Positions 16,693-26,182 of a stretch of DNA of 64,000 nt are shown one piece after another. The stretch is taken from contig CP142456.1 of NCBI GenBank assembly GCA_038049695.1, positions 74,361,422 to 74,425,421 of the forward strand, given 5' to 3'. Below the pieces are notes generated by a model. It was not told the origin of the DNA. It did no database searches and saw only the letters and a list, made by a program, of their open reading frames with translations. The DNA is from Cinnamomum chago. Taxonomy: Eukaryota; Streptophyta; Magnoliopsida; Laurales; Lauraceae. The position numbers were made by a program, and so were the translations under genes. The stretch's first letter is position 1; every line of letters starts with the position of its first letter.

Positions 16693-17472
16693 GAGAAAGG
16701 CTCTCCTCCACTGCAGTGGAGGAGAGCCTCAGCTGGAGTCACGTGGGAACGGGCCAGCTCGTGTGGAATGGCAAATGGGATGAAAGTGAATTGAAACAGT
16801 GTTGCCGCCCAAACGATTGCAGGGAAATGAAAAAAACCAGAAGCCCAAAATCGCAGCAGCATCCTCTCCAGCCGATCTCTCTCTCTGCGCCTTTCCTCTC
16901 CAGCCGATCTCTCTCTCTGCAATCGCTCTCTCTCTAGCTCCCACGCGTTCTGCTCACGATCTCTCTCCCTACCGATCTGCTGCGTCTGCTTCTCTCCTTC
17001 TCTCCCTGCAATCGGTGTCTCTCTCGATCGCTCCCATCGACACTGCTGCACACGTTGAGAGCTTCTCTGCTACTGCGATCGGTCTGCTGCGTCTGCTTCT
17101 CTCCTTCTCTCCCTGCAATCGCTGTCTCTCTCGATCGCTCCCATCGACACTGCTGCACACGTCGAGAGCTTCTCTGCTGCTGCGATCGGTCTGCTGACTC
17201 CCTCGTCTCTGCTGCTGCACGATCAGACATCCTCACTCACCTACTGCTGCGATCGCTGCTTCCTCCCTCGTCTCCCTGCGTCTCTGCTGCTATGATCTCT
17301 CGCTCCCTCTCTCGTCGAGATCTCTCTCTCTCTCTCGCCAGAAGCTCTAACTCTCTCGCCAGAAGCTCTCCCTTTCATCACTGCACTCCCTCCCGATCTC
17401 TGTTGCTGCATTTCCTCTCAAAAGTTGTCTCTCCCGCTGGTCCTCTGCCTGGCATCGTCTCCCCCACCTCCC
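16693..17472 (+). repeat. left terminal inverted repeat
   Basis: It is the counterpart of 22524-23338, read inverted. It starts with a 32-bp perfect palindrome at 16698-16729 centred on CTGCAG. It is pyrimidine-rich (many CTCTCT stretches) and contains an internal duplication of about 107 bp: CTGCTGCGTCTGC recurs at 16977 and 17084. Homology with the right copy ends at CCCCCACCTCCC (17461-17472). Arginine/serine-rich open frames here are low-complexity shadows. It could act as a CT-rich promoter for the internal GRF gene. Confidence 0.85.
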
Positions 17473-18844
17473 TGAAGTCATCTCTCTATTTGGATTTCTC
17501 TACAACGGACCAAGCCCCTCCCTCAGCAACTCTTCTACACAAAACAAAGTAAGAAAACACTTATATGGCTAAGGACTGTTTCTTTAATTTGTTTTGGATC
17601 CGGGAATGTGAGATGGAAATTGCATTCTCTGCCCCCAGTAGATTTTTTTTAGTAGAGCAACAAAAGTGCTCTCTCCCAGTGAAGGGCAACAAAAGTGCTC
17701 TCTCCCAGTAGATTTTCTTTTTCATGTTTTTCCAACTTTGAGATCTGCTCCTTTACTTTTACTATTGCATTTCCAACCTTGGATGAGCCACTCCCTTTTT
17801 GATGTAAGACACCTCTCTGTCATCTTCCTCATGCATTTTGAATTGTTTTGTGATCCTGGCCAGTACCCCATTATGGACTGATGTTAATTATTTCATGACC
17901 CTGCCCATTGCACTAAAAATTCCAAGTTCAGAAGGCTCAAATTCCAAGTTCAGAAGGCTAAAATTATTTTCAAAATCATGGAACCATTTTCAAATCTTAA
18001 GAAAATATTCAACTATCCCCTTCCAGATCAGTTTTCATGTAATCCCAATTGAATTCGGCCTTCTCCATGGTTGCCACTTTAATGCATATATTTTGAGCTA
18101 ATGGTCTGGATTGAGAGCTGAAAGTCAGATTGCCCCATTGCACTAATAATTAAAACAGAGCTAACTCATGCCTATTGCAATATAATTCCCACAGAAAACA
18201 GGGTAATTTATTTGGGGTTTTTGTCTTTTGTACATGTTATTTGGGGTTTTTGTCTTTTATTTAGTCATGGTTTTATAACTTATGAATTTTGGTTTGTTAT
18301 TCATGAATATGCTTTAATCACCATTTCTCCACCTGTTGGACTTGTCAATAGTTGTAGCTTTTTCTCTGACTTCTACTCCATAAAAGTCATCTAACTACCA
18401 AATCCTATATGGATTCATGGCATTTTTCTTTCCTTTCTATTACCATGTACTCTCTCTCTATCTGAAAATGTGGTTTACAACACAAAGCAAGAATACAGAA
18501 ATTGGGTCATCAACTTTCCTTCAGGACCAGTAGTTTTTCTTTATGAGTGTTATATGTCAAACACATGGATGCTCTGATTTTTTTACCCTTTCATTGATTG
18601 ATCTCATGTTGGATACAACCTGACAATTTCTTTTCTTTTCCACATTATCATGTTTGCTTATGTTGTTGGAAATGAAAAAAAAAATGTCGTACGAATACGG
18701 TTGGTCTAATTTTTTCTTTATATCTCCTTTGATTCAATGAAATTATCATATTTTTGCTTGTTAAGTCAATATATTTATGATTATATGTGTTCTAAAGTCT
18801 CCATCTGCCAATCCTTTCTTTTGTTTGTGAAGATCTTGAAGTAA

Positions 18845-19323
18845 ATGGCATCGTATGCCTCTTCTGGAAATTCGAACTGGCCTGAACGTTTATGTCGATG
18901 TGGTGTTGGCAACTGTATAGTCAAGATTTCGCGATCATCAAATAATTATGATAGACATTATTATTCATGTCCACGACCATTGGTAAGTACGAAATAAACT
19001 TTGGCCATTTCCTTATTTTCAATTCTTATTTATTTTCGCATATAGACAAATATATACCAACTAACGACATATATTTGCCATTCTTTGCGAGAAAATAATA
19101 GGCTTGCAATAACTTCATTGGTTGGTGTGATGAATATGTGAGATCGGCGGTCAATCACCCATACCCTTGCCAGAGTACTCCGCACTATGCCCCCCCTGAA
19201 GCTGAGAGACGTGTGGCAAATGTTGTTACAAGATTGGAGAAGCTTGAACAAATTTGTCGAGTCTTCACGGTTGTTATGATTGTTTATGCTGTCCTGCTTG
19301 TGATATTATTGTGTCGAATGTAG
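18845..19323 (+). CDS. GRF-type zinc finger protein with C-terminal membrane helix
   Basis: Two exons, 18845-18982 and 19102-19323, joined in phase 0 by a GT...AG intron (CATTG|GTAAGT, ATAATAG|GCTTGC), give 119 residues. Residues 17-57 form a GRF zinc finger: CRCG, then YYSCPRP, then CNNFIGWCDE, with the Cys/His spacing and final WxDE-like motif of that family. GRF fingers bind single-stranded nucleic acid in APE2, TOP3A and NEIL3. Plants have many small proteins with a lone GRF finger and a tail helix, of unknown function. Residues ~80-97 could form a coiled coil (RRVANVVTRLEKLEQI), and about 99-117 are a hydrophobic helix (VFTVVMIVYAVLLVILLC). The frame is intact, which suggests recent capture or selection. 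The gene lies between the inverted repeats, so it is either element-encoded or captured. An upstream exon cannot be excluded. Confidence 0.75.
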
Positions 19324-19529
19324 CATCCAAGCTTTACTCTTCTAGGTTGGAAGCTACTATTATGTAAGGGGTTGGTTGATAAGTGAAATGATAGACTCCA
19401 AATGTTTTTTGTTTTTTTGTCTTTGTTGGATAGCTGAATCTGAATGCTTGTGTTGATATGAATGATAATGTTGATATTCCTTGATATTCAATGGAAATAG
19501 TTTGTGTTGATGTTGAATGTTATAGATGA

Positions 19530-19740
19530 TGGACAAAAACAGGTTGAGTTTGAATGTGGAAGTTATAGGTGAATGAATGGTTGGTTTGATGTTGAGTAAG
19601 AATGGAAAATGTTGATGTTTTAAGTGATGGGCAAAAACAGGTTGAGTTTGAATGTGAAAGTTATAGGTGAATGGTTGGTTTGATGTTGAATAAGAATGGT
19701 GAATACTGATGTTTTAAGTGATTGGCAAGAACAGGTTTTT
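19530..19740 (+). repeat. three direct repeats of about 95 bp after the GRF gene
   Basis: The phrase CAAAAACAGGTTGAGTTTGAATG with nearby GGTTGGTTTGATGTTGA recurs at about 19535 and 19630, and a third partial copy (GGCAAGAACAGG) begins near 19723. The unit is non-coding and leads into the 188-bp array. Confidence 0.7.
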
Positions 19741-19752
19741 TTGTTTTAGTGA

Positions 19753-20500
19753 TGCTGAGTACCCCTGTTTGGGGCACTGGTTAGCCCACTTCCCGAAGGA
19801 ATTTTTGGACGATATTTGGGGGTTTCAAAGTCTATATACTGAACTTGAAATCTGCAATTTTTCATTAAAAAAATCGTGTTTGCCTAGCGTTCCAATCGCG
19901 CACTTTTGGAACCCAGTCAGTCAAATCTACCAAAAAACAATCTGAGTAGCCCTGTTTAGGTCACTGTTTGACCCACTTCCGGAGGAAATTTTTTCATGAA
20001 AATTGGGGAACTCGAAGTCAATATAATGAAGTTAAAATCTGCATTTTTTCGTTAAAAAAATATCGCGTTTGCCTAGCGTTCCAATCGCGCACTTTTGGAA
20101 CCCAGTCAGTCAAATCTGCCAAAAACCAATCTGAGTAGCCCTGTTTAGGACACTGTTTGACCCACTTCCGGAGGAAATTTTTTCATGAAAATTGGGGAAC
20201 TCGAAGTCAATATAATGAAGTTAAAATCTACATTTTTCGTTAAAAAAATATCGCGTTTGCCGAGCGTTCCAATCGCGCACTTTTGGAACCCAGTCAGTCA
20301 AATCTGCCAAAAACCAATCTGAGTAGCCCTGTTTAGGTCACTGTTTGACCCACTTCCGGAGGAAATTTTTTCATGAAAATTGGGGAACTCGAAGTCAATA
20401 TAATGAAGTTAAAATCTGAATTTTTTTCGTTAGCGTTTGCCTAGCGTTCTAGTCGCGCACTTTTGGAACCCAGTCAGTCAAATCTTCCAAAAACCAGGCA
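19753..20500 (+). repeat. 188-bp tandem array A (four units)
   Basis: Units start with GAGTAGCCCTGTTTAGG at 19944, 20133 and 20321, with a more diverged first unit from about 19753, so the period is 188-189 bp. Conserved blocks are TTTGACCCACTTCCGGAGG, GGGGAACTCGAAGTCAATAT and GCGTTTGCCTAGCGTTC. The last unit has lost part of the TAAAAAAATATC block. No coding capacity is apparent. The unit length is close to a nucleosome repeat. Confidence 0.85.
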
Positions 20501-20699
20501 CTTTTGAAACGCGAATTTTTTTTAGCCAAAAATTGCAGATTTTAACTTCATTATATGGACTTCGAGTTCCCCAATTTTCATTAATTTATCATTTGATATG
20601 AATCTGGGTAGGGAGAAAGAGGCAAACGCGAATTTTTTTTAACAAAAAATTGCAGATTTTAACTTCATTATATGGACTACGAGTTCCCCAATTTTGAAA
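20501..20699 (-). repeat. two inverted fragments of the array A unit
   Basis: Two stretches, about 20501-20580 and 20621-20697, are close reverse complements of the middle of the array A unit; both carry ATTTTAACTTCATTATATGG, the complement of the array A sequence. They lie between arrays A and B and could pair with array A at high identity. Confidence 0.8.
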
Positions 20700-20826
20700 T
20701 GAGCTTCACTGTGTTTACAAATGTGGAAACGAGTAGTAGTAGTTAATGGAGTCAGCTACTTGACTGTGTTTACAACTCTAGATCTGATCTTGACAAAAGA
20801 AGTTTTCATCAGTTTTTTTTTTACCG

Positions 20827-21780
20827 AGTTTCATCAGTTTTTCTGACTGAGTTGAAAAAGTGCGCGAGTTAAAAACCGATCAAACGCAATCGTTCCTTGC
20901 CCAAATATAGCAGATTTTAAGTCCGGAATATGGTCTTCGCATACCCCAAGTTTCAACCAAAAATTCCATCCGGAAGTGGGTCAACCAGTGGCCCGAACAA
21001 CGGTACTCAGCAAGGTTTCATCAGTTTTCTGCGACTGAGTTGAAAAAGTGCGCGAGTTGAAAACCGATCAAACGCATTCGTCCGTTGCCCAAATATAGCA
21101 GATTTTATTTCCGGAATATGGTCTTCGAATACCCCAAATTTCATCAAAAAATTACATCCGAAAGTGGGTCAACCAGTTGCCCGAACAGGGGTACTCAGCA
21201 AGGTTTCATCAGTTTTCTGCGACTGAGTTGAAAAAGTGCGCGAGTTGAAAACCGATCAAACGCGATCGTTCCTTCCCCAAATATATAAGATTTTAAGTCC
21301 GGAATATGGTCTTCGCATACCCCAAATTTCATCGAAAAACTCCATCCGGAAGTGGGTCAACCAGTTGCCCAAACAGGGGTACTCAGCAAGGTTTCATCAG
21401 TTTTCTGCGACTGAGTTGAAAAAGTGCGCGAGTTGAAAACCGATCAAACGAGATCGTTCCTTCCCCAAATATATAAGATTTTAAGTTCGGAATATGGTCT
21501 TCGCATACCCCAAATTTCATCCAAAAATTACATCCGGAAGTAGGTCAACCAGTTGCCCGAACAGGGGTACTCAGCAAGGTTTCATCAGTTTTCTGCGACT
21601 GAGTTGAAAAAGTGCGCGAGTTGAAAACCGATCAAACGCATTCGTCCGTGGCCCAAATATAGTAGATTTTAAGTCCGGAATATGGTCTTCGCATACCCCC
21701 CAAATTTCATCCAAAAATTACATCCGGAAGTGGGTCAACCAATTGCTCGAACAGGGGTACTCATCAAGGTTTCATCAGTT
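20827..21780 (-). repeat. 188-bp tandem array B, opposite to array A
   Basis: GTTTCATCAGTTTTCTGCGA marks unit boundaries at about 20827, 21015, 21203, 21391, 21579 and 21769, giving five units of 188-190 bp. Read on the minus strand the unit begins GAGTACCCCTGTTCGGGC and continues GACCCACTTCCGGATG, so it is the same repeat family as array A in inverted orientation but clearly diverged from it. Units within B are much more alike than A and B are to each other. Confidence 0.85.
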
Positions 21781-22200
21781 TACACTGCACACATAAACCC
21801 ATCACACTGCACAATATTACACTGCACACATAAAAACATCTCTAGACAATGTGAAAGAAATAAATCCATTCATTCATTTAACCCATCTCTGCACAATGTG
21901 AAAGAAATAAATCCATTCATTCATTAAACAGTAATGTTCATCAAAATATTGATCAATTTATCAATGTGTCAATCTCACATATTATAAACTACATAAACAA
22001 AATTCTTGCTTTTCCATGTTTTTCTTCATCAAAAGTACAGGAACAAAAGGTTGGCATAACAAAGAAGATGAATGGAGTCTTCATGTCTCATTCTCTGCAT
22101 AAAGTCTTCATAAGCTTACAAAGAAGATGAATGGAGTCTTCATGTCTTCATTCTCTGCAACAAGTCTGCATATCTGCATTATAGTAATTGAGCTGCAATA
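21780..22200 (+). repeat. short direct repeats inside the element
   Basis: ACACTGCACACATAAA occurs twice near 21782 and 21820. AATGTGAAAGAAATAAATCC occurs twice (about 21848 and 21896). ACAAAGAAGATGAATGGAG occurs twice (about 22060 and 22118). No coding potential was found. The remainder, to the right inverted repeat at 22524, shows nothing recognisable. Confidence 0.65.
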
Positions 22201-22523
22201 GACATGCAACTTGTGATAAGTTATGGAGGGAAATAAAAACATTAATGTGGATCATGGTTCATTTCACAAACTATTCATACATATGGCAGTCTGCAATAGA
22301 TGGTTATGAAAGAATTCCATCCATGTTGAGGGGTTTCAAATTAAATAGCATATCATACAACAGGATTATGGGTTTGCTGCCTGTTTTCAAAACTGACTCT
22401 TTAATTATGGGTTTGCTGCCTGTAAAACATGATATGATAAAATGGCAAGGAGTTTACCAAAGGTCTATTTAAAGCATTTCTTGGAGGATGAATACATTTG
22501 TGGGTGAGAAAGGAAAAGATACT

Positions 22524-23334
22524 GGGAGGTGGGGGAGACGATGCCAGGCAGAGGACCAGCGGGAGAGACGACTTTTGAGAGGAAATGCAGCAGCAGAGAT
22601 CGGGAGGGAGTGCAGTGATGAGAGGGAGAGCTTCTGGCGAGAGAGTTAGAGCTTCTGGCGAGAGAGAGAGAGAGAGATCTCGACGAGAGAGGGAGCGAGA
22701 GATCGCAGCAGCAGAGACGCAGGGAGACGAGGGAGGAAGCAGCGATCGCAGCAGCAAGTGAGTGAGGATGTCTGATCGCGCAGCAGCAGAGACGAGGGAG
22801 GAAGCAGTGATCGCAGCAGCAGAGACGAGGGAGTCAGCAGACCGATCTCAGCAGCAGAGAAGCTCTCGACGTGTGCAGCAGTGTCGATGGGAGCGATCGA
22901 GAGAGACAACGATTGCAAGGAGAGAAGGAGAGAAGCAAACGCAGCAGACCGATCGCAGCAGCAGAGAAGCTCTCGACGTGTGCAGCAGTGTCGATGGGAG
23001 CGATCGAGAGAGACACCGATTGCAGGGAGAGAAGGAGAGAAGCAGACGCAGCAGATCGGGAGGGAGAGAGATCGTGAGCAGAACGCGTGGGAGCTAGAGA
23101 GAGAGCGATTGCAGAGAGAGAGATCGGCTGGAGAGGAAGTGCGCAGAGAGAGAGATCGGCTGGAGAGGATGCTGCTGCGATTTTGGGCTTCTGCTTTTTT
23201 TCATTTCCCTGCAATCATTTGGGCGGCAACATTGTTTCAATTCACTTTCATCCCATTTGCCATTCCACACGAGCTGGCCCGTTCCCACGTGACTCCAGCT
23301 GAGGCTCTCCTCCACTGCAGTGGAGGAGAGCCTT

Positions 23335-23338
<4 letters not shown>
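22524..23338 (-). repeat. right terminal inverted repeat
   Basis: This is the inverted copy of 16693-17472, about 35 bp longer because of small repeat-number differences. The outer tip carries the same 32-bp palindrome at 23302-23333. It is followed outward by a (TC)n run and then the TA microsatellite. The repeat of about 107 bp is also duplicated here, so the two arms have evolved together or the element is young. Confidence 0.85.
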
Positions 23339-24818: not shown

Positions 24819-24996
24819 ACCCCAAGGGGTAGCTCAGTTGGCCTAGGACTACGGTTTGCACCCGGAGGTTGTGGGTTCGAAACTGCTCTACCACACTGGG
24901 GCCACAGGGGAATTTTACCCGGCTTTCTCTCCTGGGCCCGTAGGGATTATTCTGGCCCAAAGGGCTAAGAACCCTACGTTATAAAAAAAAAAAAAA
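24819..24996 (+). mobile_element. tRNA-derived SINE with poly(A) tail
   Basis: It starts near CCCCAAGGGGTAGCTCAG. Box A is TAGCTCAGTTGG and box B is GGTTCGAAAC, spaced as in a tRNA promoter. A body of about 150 bp ends in CCCTACGTTAT and about 18 A residues. The direct repeat AAAAGCTACCAAAAAA flanks it at 24803-24818 and 24997-25012. The perfect duplication and intact promoter boxes suggest a young copy. Confidence 0.88.
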
Positions 24997-25012
24997 AAAA
25001 GCTACCAAAAAA

Positions 25013-26182
25013 GATAGTAAAAAAAAAAAAAAAAAAAAAGGCTGGTAAAAAAGGAGTACATATCTTTCCTTGACGTTTTCCGTGCCCAGAGAAAGGTGCC
25101 TCTGCCCATCTTCATCTTTTTTCAATAAAAGAGAACCCAACTATACCAACCTTATCTCTATCCTCAACATCAAGAACCCACGTGATTGCACTACTATCTA
25201 ACATGGATTTGTAGGGTCCTTAGCTCCTTGAAGAGAGTGTGAGTCTCACATTTTACATCTAAGCTTGCTTGCCCTCCAACTATAGGAATGTCTAATCCAT
25301 TGGTCTATTGTTGATAGAGCTTCCTAAAAGCTTGTTTTGTGGACATCAGAATGGGTGTTTGATGAAAAAATGACAACGGTTTAGACCATGAAGGACTAAG
25401 AAATTTTCCATTTGAGGGGGCCATTTTATAAAAACGAAATCTGAGGGGGTCATGTGTAAGAAAATTAAAAAAATAATAAATAATAATAAATTAAATGCAC
25501 GCAAGAGACGAGATTTACGTCAAAAAATAGATTAGATTGTAAACATAAAACAAATGAAATGTCTAACTCAAGAATCTTTTTAAAAAGCCCTAATCTCTAA
25601 CACAGAATCTTCTCATGAGAAAGCAGTAGTATTAACTTATTCTTATTTAAGCAGAGCATGAACTATGAATTGGATCTCATGACATAATCCATCTCACACT
25701 ATAGGAAGATTTTCTCCTACTAGCAGCCTGATCATGTGTAGTCCAACTCCATTGGGCCCGCTTGCGCTCACTTTTGATCCATGCAATCACTTTCACGCTC
25801 TTGCCATTCTATGATATGGTACCATGCCTAATTTTACACTCATTCAGCCTTCACTTACTATTACATTGAGTTGAATCTCGAAAAGAAAATCATGATTAAA
25901 ATGCTATCAAAGTTTAAGGCTATTTGATAGGGCTAATATTTTGGCCGACCCTAATCTATTTTTATATGCATCTCTATATTGACCCCATGAGCTGGACTGC
26001 ATATGAACAAAATACAACCCGAAGTAAGAGATAGTTTTCGCTCAATATATTCTTTGACCAATATAATCCATATAAGAGAGGCCAATCATTTTTTAACATA
26101 GCTAGCTATTCGTGATATAATATAAGAATCCAAATAAGTTTTAAAAAATATGAAGCATCAAATAAAATATGATAAGTTGTCC
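25013..26182. other. unassigned intergenic DNA
   Basis: No gene was found. A poly(A) stretch lies at 25020-25039. The segment near 25410-25450 (GAGGGGGCCATTTTATAAAA, then GAGGGGGTCATG) resembles the G-rich ends of hAT-type repeats, but no boundaries could be fixed. Confidence 0.45.

Follow-up and report, generated by a model that had tools for sequence, protein, structure and literature searches.

What do two satellite-like arrays that face each other inside a DNA transposon contribute to the element that carries them? The question is raised by a 64,000-nt stretch of the Cinnamomum chago genome (GCA_038049695.1, CP142456.1:74,361,422-74,425,421, forward strand), referred to here as the window, for which it had been predicted from the letters alone that an array A of four units and an array B of five units, both with a 188-bp period, lie in opposite orientation with two inverted fragments of the A unit between them. 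That arrangement was confirmed, and the features on which the following analysis depends are collected in Table 1. The arrays are first described in the window, then compared with their relatives in the same genome, so that their origin and their possible role can be considered in turn.

Table 1. Positions in the window of the element, its GRF gene, its arrays and the adjoining segments
Feature	Position	Strand	Description
Left terminal inverted repeat	16693-17472	+	Left flank (TA)n
Proposed exchanged cassette (GRF gene and A array)	18318-20584	+	90-98% piecewise to L020, L025
GRF gene, exon 1	18845-18982	+	46 codons
GRF gene, exon 2	19102-19323	+	Ends in hydrophobic stretch and stop
Array A	19753-20496 (TRF start 19755)	+	Four 188-bp units, 3' of GRF gene, in gene sense
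Inverted A fragment 1	20507-20584	-	91-92% complementary to A; proposed remnant of opposing A arm
Inverted A fragment 2	20620-20695	-	91-92% complementary to A; proposed remnant of opposing A arm
Spacer "mid"	20696-20827		97-100% conserved in 6 of 7 fetched A/B relatives and in L011
Array B	20828-21781	-	Five 188-bp units
Sequence between array B and transposase gene in relatives	21782-22527		Joins right inverted repeat at 22524-22527
Right terminal inverted repeat	22524-23338	-	Right flank (CT)n then (TA)n

Arrays and GRF gene in the window

Tandem Repeats Finder resolved array A as 4.0 copies of period 188 with 90% matches and array B as 5.1 copies of the same period with 92% matches. The period is near the nucleosome repeat, as had been pointed out. 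A protein-coding array was set aside, 188 not being a multiple of 3. The A-like sense of array B is on the minus strand, which is also the direction in which the transposase gene reads in those relatives that keep one. When A was compared with the reverse complement of B, 72-78% identity was observed over 107-177 bp, and the local alignment score of an A unit against a reverse-complemented B unit reached 123, while none of 1000 shuffles scored above 31. Mean identity over the A-B unit pairs examined was 70%, in support of the view that the two arrays have diverged from one another, while the two consensuses were identical at 0.71-0.72 of positions, for which a corrected distance of approximately 0.36 was calculated by hand. 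The inverted A fragments positioned between the arrays are 76-78 bp in length. The spacer that follows them is absent from the L019 stretch and displaced in L018.

The gene beside array A has two exons and encodes a product of 119 aa. The joined exons match the GRF zinc-finger profile PF06839 with E 1.6e-7 and 31.8 bits, above the cut-off of 25.9, and the score of exon 1 alone is slightly below this cut-off. The protein is presumably "At4g04775-like", and its hydrophobic C-terminus, judged by eye, is likely a membrane anchor. In eight of the nine copies compared the reading frame is intact (L017 has a stop), and the splice sites are conserved across the copies compared. The pN/pS ratio is 0.61 (28 pairs, eight copies), a sign of weak constraint on the gene.

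Layout and polarity among relatives

Searches with the A and B units gave 137 and 101 matches, respectively, in the 40 candidates scored out of 659 for A and the 40 scored out of 532 for B. For the clustering of A loci, 124 of the 137 rows were used, the 13 short rows excluded being inverted A fragments. The 40 loci obtained with the A query comprise 20 with opposed A/A arrays, eight with opposed A/B arrays and 12 with an array in one orientation only. An assembly artefact is unlikely, since opposed arrays are carried by 28 of these 40 loci; the 12 remaining loci count as evidence against an opposed module. The inverted A fragments are present at seven of the eight A/B-type loci, and this recurrence rules out their origin as local debris.

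Twenty stretches were fetched for closer comparison: seven of A/B type (L013-L019), eight of A/A type (L020, L022, L025, L028-L032) and five with an array in one orientation only (L021, L023, L024, L026, L027). Individual copies depart from the simple layout, L019 having a second A array in a single orientation and L018 being rearranged, with two B blocks and the "mid" spacer between them. In L024 (1337-8093) and L027 (1511-8650), inverted repeats of 2.3-2.6 kb, 98-99% identical, surround a single-orientation A array; both look like recent relatives and are without GRF or transposase matches.

The polarity of the arrays relative to the genes was uniform. According to our own reading of the match tables, the GRF-adjacent array is in the GRF sense at all 10 GRF-bearing loci (window and 20 fetched stretches), the transposase-adjacent array is in the transposase sense at all 11 transposase-bearing loci, and the two genes are convergent at all eight loci that have both. 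Moreover, arrays in opposition were found in three combinations of units, A/A, A/B and C/C. In the C/C element (L038+L036+L039), 15 units of type C face 13 others; together with the spacer they occupy about 5.8 kb, and they form the longest opposed pair fetched. Neither a GRF gene nor a transposase was found in the C/C element at E 1e-3. A long ORF at L038 1225-2673 (minus), copia gag-like by eye, is apparently nested in this element. A fourth type of unit was seen in L037, where the 4 kb fetched contain 16 units, all oriented alike.

Element ends, insertion site and transposase

As had been proposed, the arrays lie within a DNA transposon. The element spans 6.6 kb (16693-23338), is situated in (TA)n and is bounded by long inverted ends, of which 526 bp (16693-17218 and 22813-23338) are 98% identical and which continue inward to 17472 and 22524. 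Both 188-bp arrays occupy the interior of the element, at distances of 2.3 kb and 0.7 kb from these inverted repeats. The only tandem repetition found in the repeats themselves is a 107-bp duplication on the left (16973-17186), so that they are not inverted repeats built from tandem arrays, by which foldback elements are defined. TA repeats flank the element on both sides, in which a target-site duplication of 8-11 bp is indistinguishable from the microsatellite. Beyond the right end, at 24823-25060, a tRNA-like stretch followed by A-rich tails resembles, by eye, a tRNA-derived SINE; ARAGORN reported no tRNA in the window, this stretch included.

Both ends of the window element carry a perfect palindrome of 32 bp (16698-16729 and 23302-23333). 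Fourteen ends were read in eight elements, namely the window copy, L013, L014, L016, L017, L018, L019 and the C/C element. Thirteen of them have the palindrome, in some cases with a mismatch, together with a TA-rich flank, which is imperfect on the right of L018; both features are missing from the right end of L014. The two ends of the C/C element have 42 bp in common with the inverted repeat of the window. In the core of its palindrome, which is palindromic at the left and has one mismatch at the right, matching changes are observed on both sides, hinting that the palindrome is perhaps needed by the element.

No transposase match was obtained in the window copy. Among the relatives, PF10551 (MULE) was found in L013, L017 and L018, FAR1 in L017 and L018, and SWIM in L013 and L018. 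In L018, the transposase is present as two ORFs separated by one in-frame stop. Because related copies carry this FAR1-MULE-SWIM transposase, the window element is classified, by the domains of its relatives, as a non-autonomous Mutator-like element of FAR1/Jittery type. At 22524-22527, the sequence that follows array B and the right inverted repeat overlap by 4 bp, and the stretch of L016 that holds the transposase end is missing from the window. This position probably represents a deletion junction, the transposase having been lost from the window copy by internal deletion. In one copy, approximately 1.9 kb of extra sequence (L013:8851 to L034:818) interrupts the transposase gene.

Comparison of L018 with the A/A-type copies L025, L030 and L032 gave dN/dS of 0.16-0.18 at dS 0.42-0.45 for the transposase, and comparison with A/A-type L020 and L028 gave 0.23-0.26 at dS 0.41-0.44. 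Within the A/B family (L013, L015, L017), dN/dS was 0.45-0.79 at dS 0.03-0.07. This difference in dN/dS points to selection on the transposase between lineages, with few indications of selection in recent copies.

Origin of the arrays

The original prediction attributed each array to its own expansion following an old inversion, on the ground that units within an array are alike. The likeness stands for inner units and fails for edge units. In the window, the first A unit is only 81.5% identical (0.815) to the best match in its own array, compared with 97-98% to the first A units of other elements (0.98 to L013). In the same manner, the first and last B units are closer to units at the same position elsewhere (0.963 and 0.952) than to units of their own array (0.937 and 0.904), while the inner units do not discriminate between their own array and other elements. 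Identity within an element hardly exceeds that between elements, being 0.893 within an arm versus 0.882 between elements for A and 0.925 versus 0.920 for B. Within the A/B family, 28 of 52 A units and 31 of 51 B units find their nearest unit in another element, and 14 and 19, respectively, find it in the same element, the remainder being tied. Independent expansion in the window copy was rejected on account of these near-equal identities and the edge-unit matches, which argue that the arrays were mostly copied along with the element rather than re-expanded locally. Some local duplication of units may have occurred.

For the A/A family, the nearest unit is in another element for 37 of 72 units and in the same element for 35, ties being counted here. 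Of the latter, 23 have it in the opposite arm, a raw count of 23 to 12. Such a proportion is expected if the arms convert one another, although the mean identity in A/A elements, 0.893 both within and across arms, speaks against it.

The genes on either side of the arrays differ in their divergence. The synonymous difference of the GRF gene between the window and the A/A-type loci L020 and L025 is only 0.06-0.07, smaller than the pS of 0.098 between the window and L018 of its own family, while the transposase dS between the same two lineages is 0.41-0.45. The A-B distance given above is of the same order as this transposase dS. From this discrepancy between the two genes, it is strongly suggested that the window family is chimeric, the GRF gene and array A being derived from one lineage and array B from the other; the larger GRF distance to L018, a member of its own family, counts against this reading. 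The region 18318-20584 is 77-98% identical to pieces of six other A/A-type loci. Similarity to L025 has a sharp start at 18318 and extends, in pieces that are 90-97% identical, as far as 20584. Beyond these limits nothing aligned to the fetched L025 stretch with the low-complexity filter on, and short CT-rich pieces did match. A statement that the inverted ends of the two types differ is to be read only as a lack of alignment outside 18318-20584 in the fetched stretches, in which no end of an A/A element was identified. The comparison also strongly suggests that the inverted A fragments are leftovers of the opposing A arm of the donor. The simplest account would be the entry of a cassette consisting of the GRF gene and the A array into a B-type element, together with two scraps of the opposing A arm. 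A B/B element, which is predicted by such a chimera, was not seen among the loci read.

Possible role of the arrays

Taking these results together, we think it probable, though well short of certain, that the window copy belongs to a TA-microsatellite-targeting MULE variant with an inherited module of opposed arrays between convergent genes, in a family of chimeric origin, where the arrays would act in cis. In the fetched relatives that have both genes, the GRF gene and the transposase gene converge, and between their 3' ends lie the opposed 188-bp arrays, each in the sense of the neighbouring gene and transmitted along with the element. The GRF gene and array A would have been exchanged from a lineage with an old-diverged transposase, array B coming from the other lineage, and the window copy would subsequently have lost its transposase through internal deletion. 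The arrays may serve as exchange points for gene modules, and those of A/A elements may be kept alike by gene conversion between the arms. Their likeliest role in cis would be the separation of two convergent transcription units, either via 3'-end formation or via a chromatin boundary with regular nucleosome spacing. Near-identical arms, as in the A/A elements, could additionally make a hairpin RNA. A bolder generalization is offered tentatively and with considerable doubt: a two-gene kind of MULE in which the GRF gene and its array form a mobile cassette exchanged among transposon lineages, and the opposed arrays are recombination joints as well as a nucleosome-spaced boundary or a regulatory target separating the convergent genes.

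A less elaborate explanation, somewhat doubtful in our view, is that the arrays are neutral passengers, originating in one ancestral inverted duplication and kept without any role by arm conversion and whole-element copying. Unit copy number varies (2-9 A per arm, 1-10 B, 15 and 13 C), single-orientation and gene-less copies exist, and divergence at the edges with homogeneity inside is usual for tandem arrays. The A and B consensuses also carry indels, with 6 indel events and 40-41 substitutions counted in one alignment and one gap column in another. However, the layout, the polarity and the unit length, which is 188-189 bp in the consensuses of all five groups, persist despite a unit divergence of approximately 28% and the transposase dS stated above. 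Furthermore, the indel/substitution ratio of the units (0.042 for A and 0.020 for B) is low for non-coding DNA. The corresponding values are 0.078 for the preA segment, 0.19 for postB and 0.21 for the left internal part (one comparison); the spacer, with 2 indels and 8 substitutions, has 0.25, and the GRF segment 0.023. These ratios give only a weak hint of a length constraint on the units, since the pairs are non-independent, the aligners differ, few events were counted in the flanks and homogenisation might reduce the number of indels.

It had also been suggested that a transcript across the region could fold into a multi-kilobase double-stranded RNA. In its full form, readthrough of the opposed arrays would yield long double-stranded RNA and then small RNAs that silence the family, for which the position of the arrays between convergent genes is suitable. 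The relatives are favourable to this suggestion: in eight A/A elements, whose arms are separated by spacers of 5-12 bp, 439-1242 bases lie in perfect complementary stretches of at least 21 nt, the longest being 74-167 nt, and in the C/C element 1898 of 2798 bases do so, with a longest stretch of 54 nt. A precedent is provided by Mu killer of maize, for which a hairpin RNA of about 4 kb is proposed in the available part of the report (PMC3440606). The window itself fits poorly. Its arrays A and B have one perfect complementary stretch of 21 nt, and L013 and L017 have none of at least 21 nt; a near-perfect duplex could form only from the pair of inverted A fragments, each about 75 bp in length. 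Of the 744 bases of array A, 116 fall in stretches of at least 21 nt that are perfectly complementary to the region bearing these fragments. In the predicted folds, calculated without a shuffled control, 421 of 692 pairs in the fold of the window region still link A with B, imperfectly, and the energy is -0.37 kcal/mol per nt, compared with -0.85 for L022. Long double-stranded RNA is thus predicted to be plausible for the A/A and C/C relatives and poor for the window copy. Moreover, an element that retains a silencing hairpin would be expected to suffer from it, and as an explanation of the arrays we regard self-silencing as unlikely.

By analogy, the arrays might instead be the targets of a regulator encoded by the element, bound by the GRF protein or by the FAR1 transposase. 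GRF domains are not known as sequence-specific binders, and the hydrophobic C-terminus better suits a membrane protein. A conserved core motif was sought and rejected: the two invariant blocks of 11 and 12 bp over the five consensuses do not go beyond shuffles, the observed clustering of invariant positions being reached in 2009 of 5000. The apparent travelling of the arrays with the GRF gene as a cassette is in favour of such a target, as is the behaviour of the VANC proteins of Arabidopsis VANDAL elements, which bind non-coding tandem repeats and undo silencing according to the accessible parts of two reports (PMC5735166, PMC10398659), a likeness by description alone. Overall, this explanation is improbable.

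The 188-bp unit resembles plant satellites, whose units are of similar length. Nevertheless, the suggestion that the element seeds satellites, releasing units that grow into centromeric or dispersed arrays, is most improbable even with a Drosophila precedent in Tetris (PMC4079207, in the part available), as the scored loci (40 of 659 candidates for A; 40 of 532 for B, the latter by reading) included no array of satellite scale. All of the scored A loci were short, their A-type hits extending over no more than 2.9 kb, and the C/C pair was the longest fetched.

Comparison with known elements

Several features of the element, in the reading of an inherited array module between convergent genes, have counterparts elsewhere. 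MuTAnT and AutoMuTAnT of Medicago truncatula (PMC4486113) are likewise Mutator-like, with a Jittery-like transposase, (TA)n insertion and modular foldback inverted ends. AutoMuTAnT, likened here by description, differs in being 4873 bp long with a single ORF, and the available portions of that paper describe neither a second gene nor long internal arrays. The Ac-mMITEs of pineapple have in common the preference for insertion in (TA)n and a likely derivation from Mutator; in the parts of the source at hand (PMC8449440), they differ as MITEs without coding capacity, for which the authors found no autonomous partner. A MULE with a second ORF opposite to the transposase is exemplified by MuDR in maize and by Abermu in barley and other plants (PMC9168764, PMC6446971, both available in part), and their MURB and ORFR proteins are said to have no similarity (PMC9168764). 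The term GRF is absent from the main text of these two papers, and the opposed arrays between the genes belong to the present element.

VANDAL elements with VANC target repeats share non-coding tandem repeats, accessory genes and membership in the plant DNA transposons. The difference is that short motifs are repeated there, and opposed 188-bp arrays or a GRF gene are not described in the portions available (PMC5735166, PMC10398659). Inverted tandem arrays inside a DNA transposon are also found in the foldback-like Tm1 (PMC3169594), whose repeat copy number is said to vary, and in Tetris (PMC4079207). In both, as far as the partial texts extend, the terminal inverted repeats themselves contain the tandem repeats, whereas the present 188-bp arrays are internal.

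On the accessible parts of these sources, TA-targeting Jittery-like MULEs, second opposite ORFs, protein-target repeats and repeats in inverted ends are already known. Among the papers listed or read from the open-licence literature, no MULE was found that combines a GRF gene with opposed arrays placed between its convergent genes, and none of the papers listed tied a GRF zinc finger, GRF-type or At4g04775 to transposons. On that literature, the GRF gene and the opposed internal arrays between convergent MULE genes would be new.

Internal transposon arrays are often taken as satellite seeds or debris. The present comparison contains a warning in this regard, in that within-array similarity in one copy is no basis for inferring local expansion. 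Among the relatives in the same genome, the opposed array pair was kept between convergent genes over deep divergence and has apparently moved with one gene. The contribution of internal arrays to a transposon can therefore be put to the test in this family.
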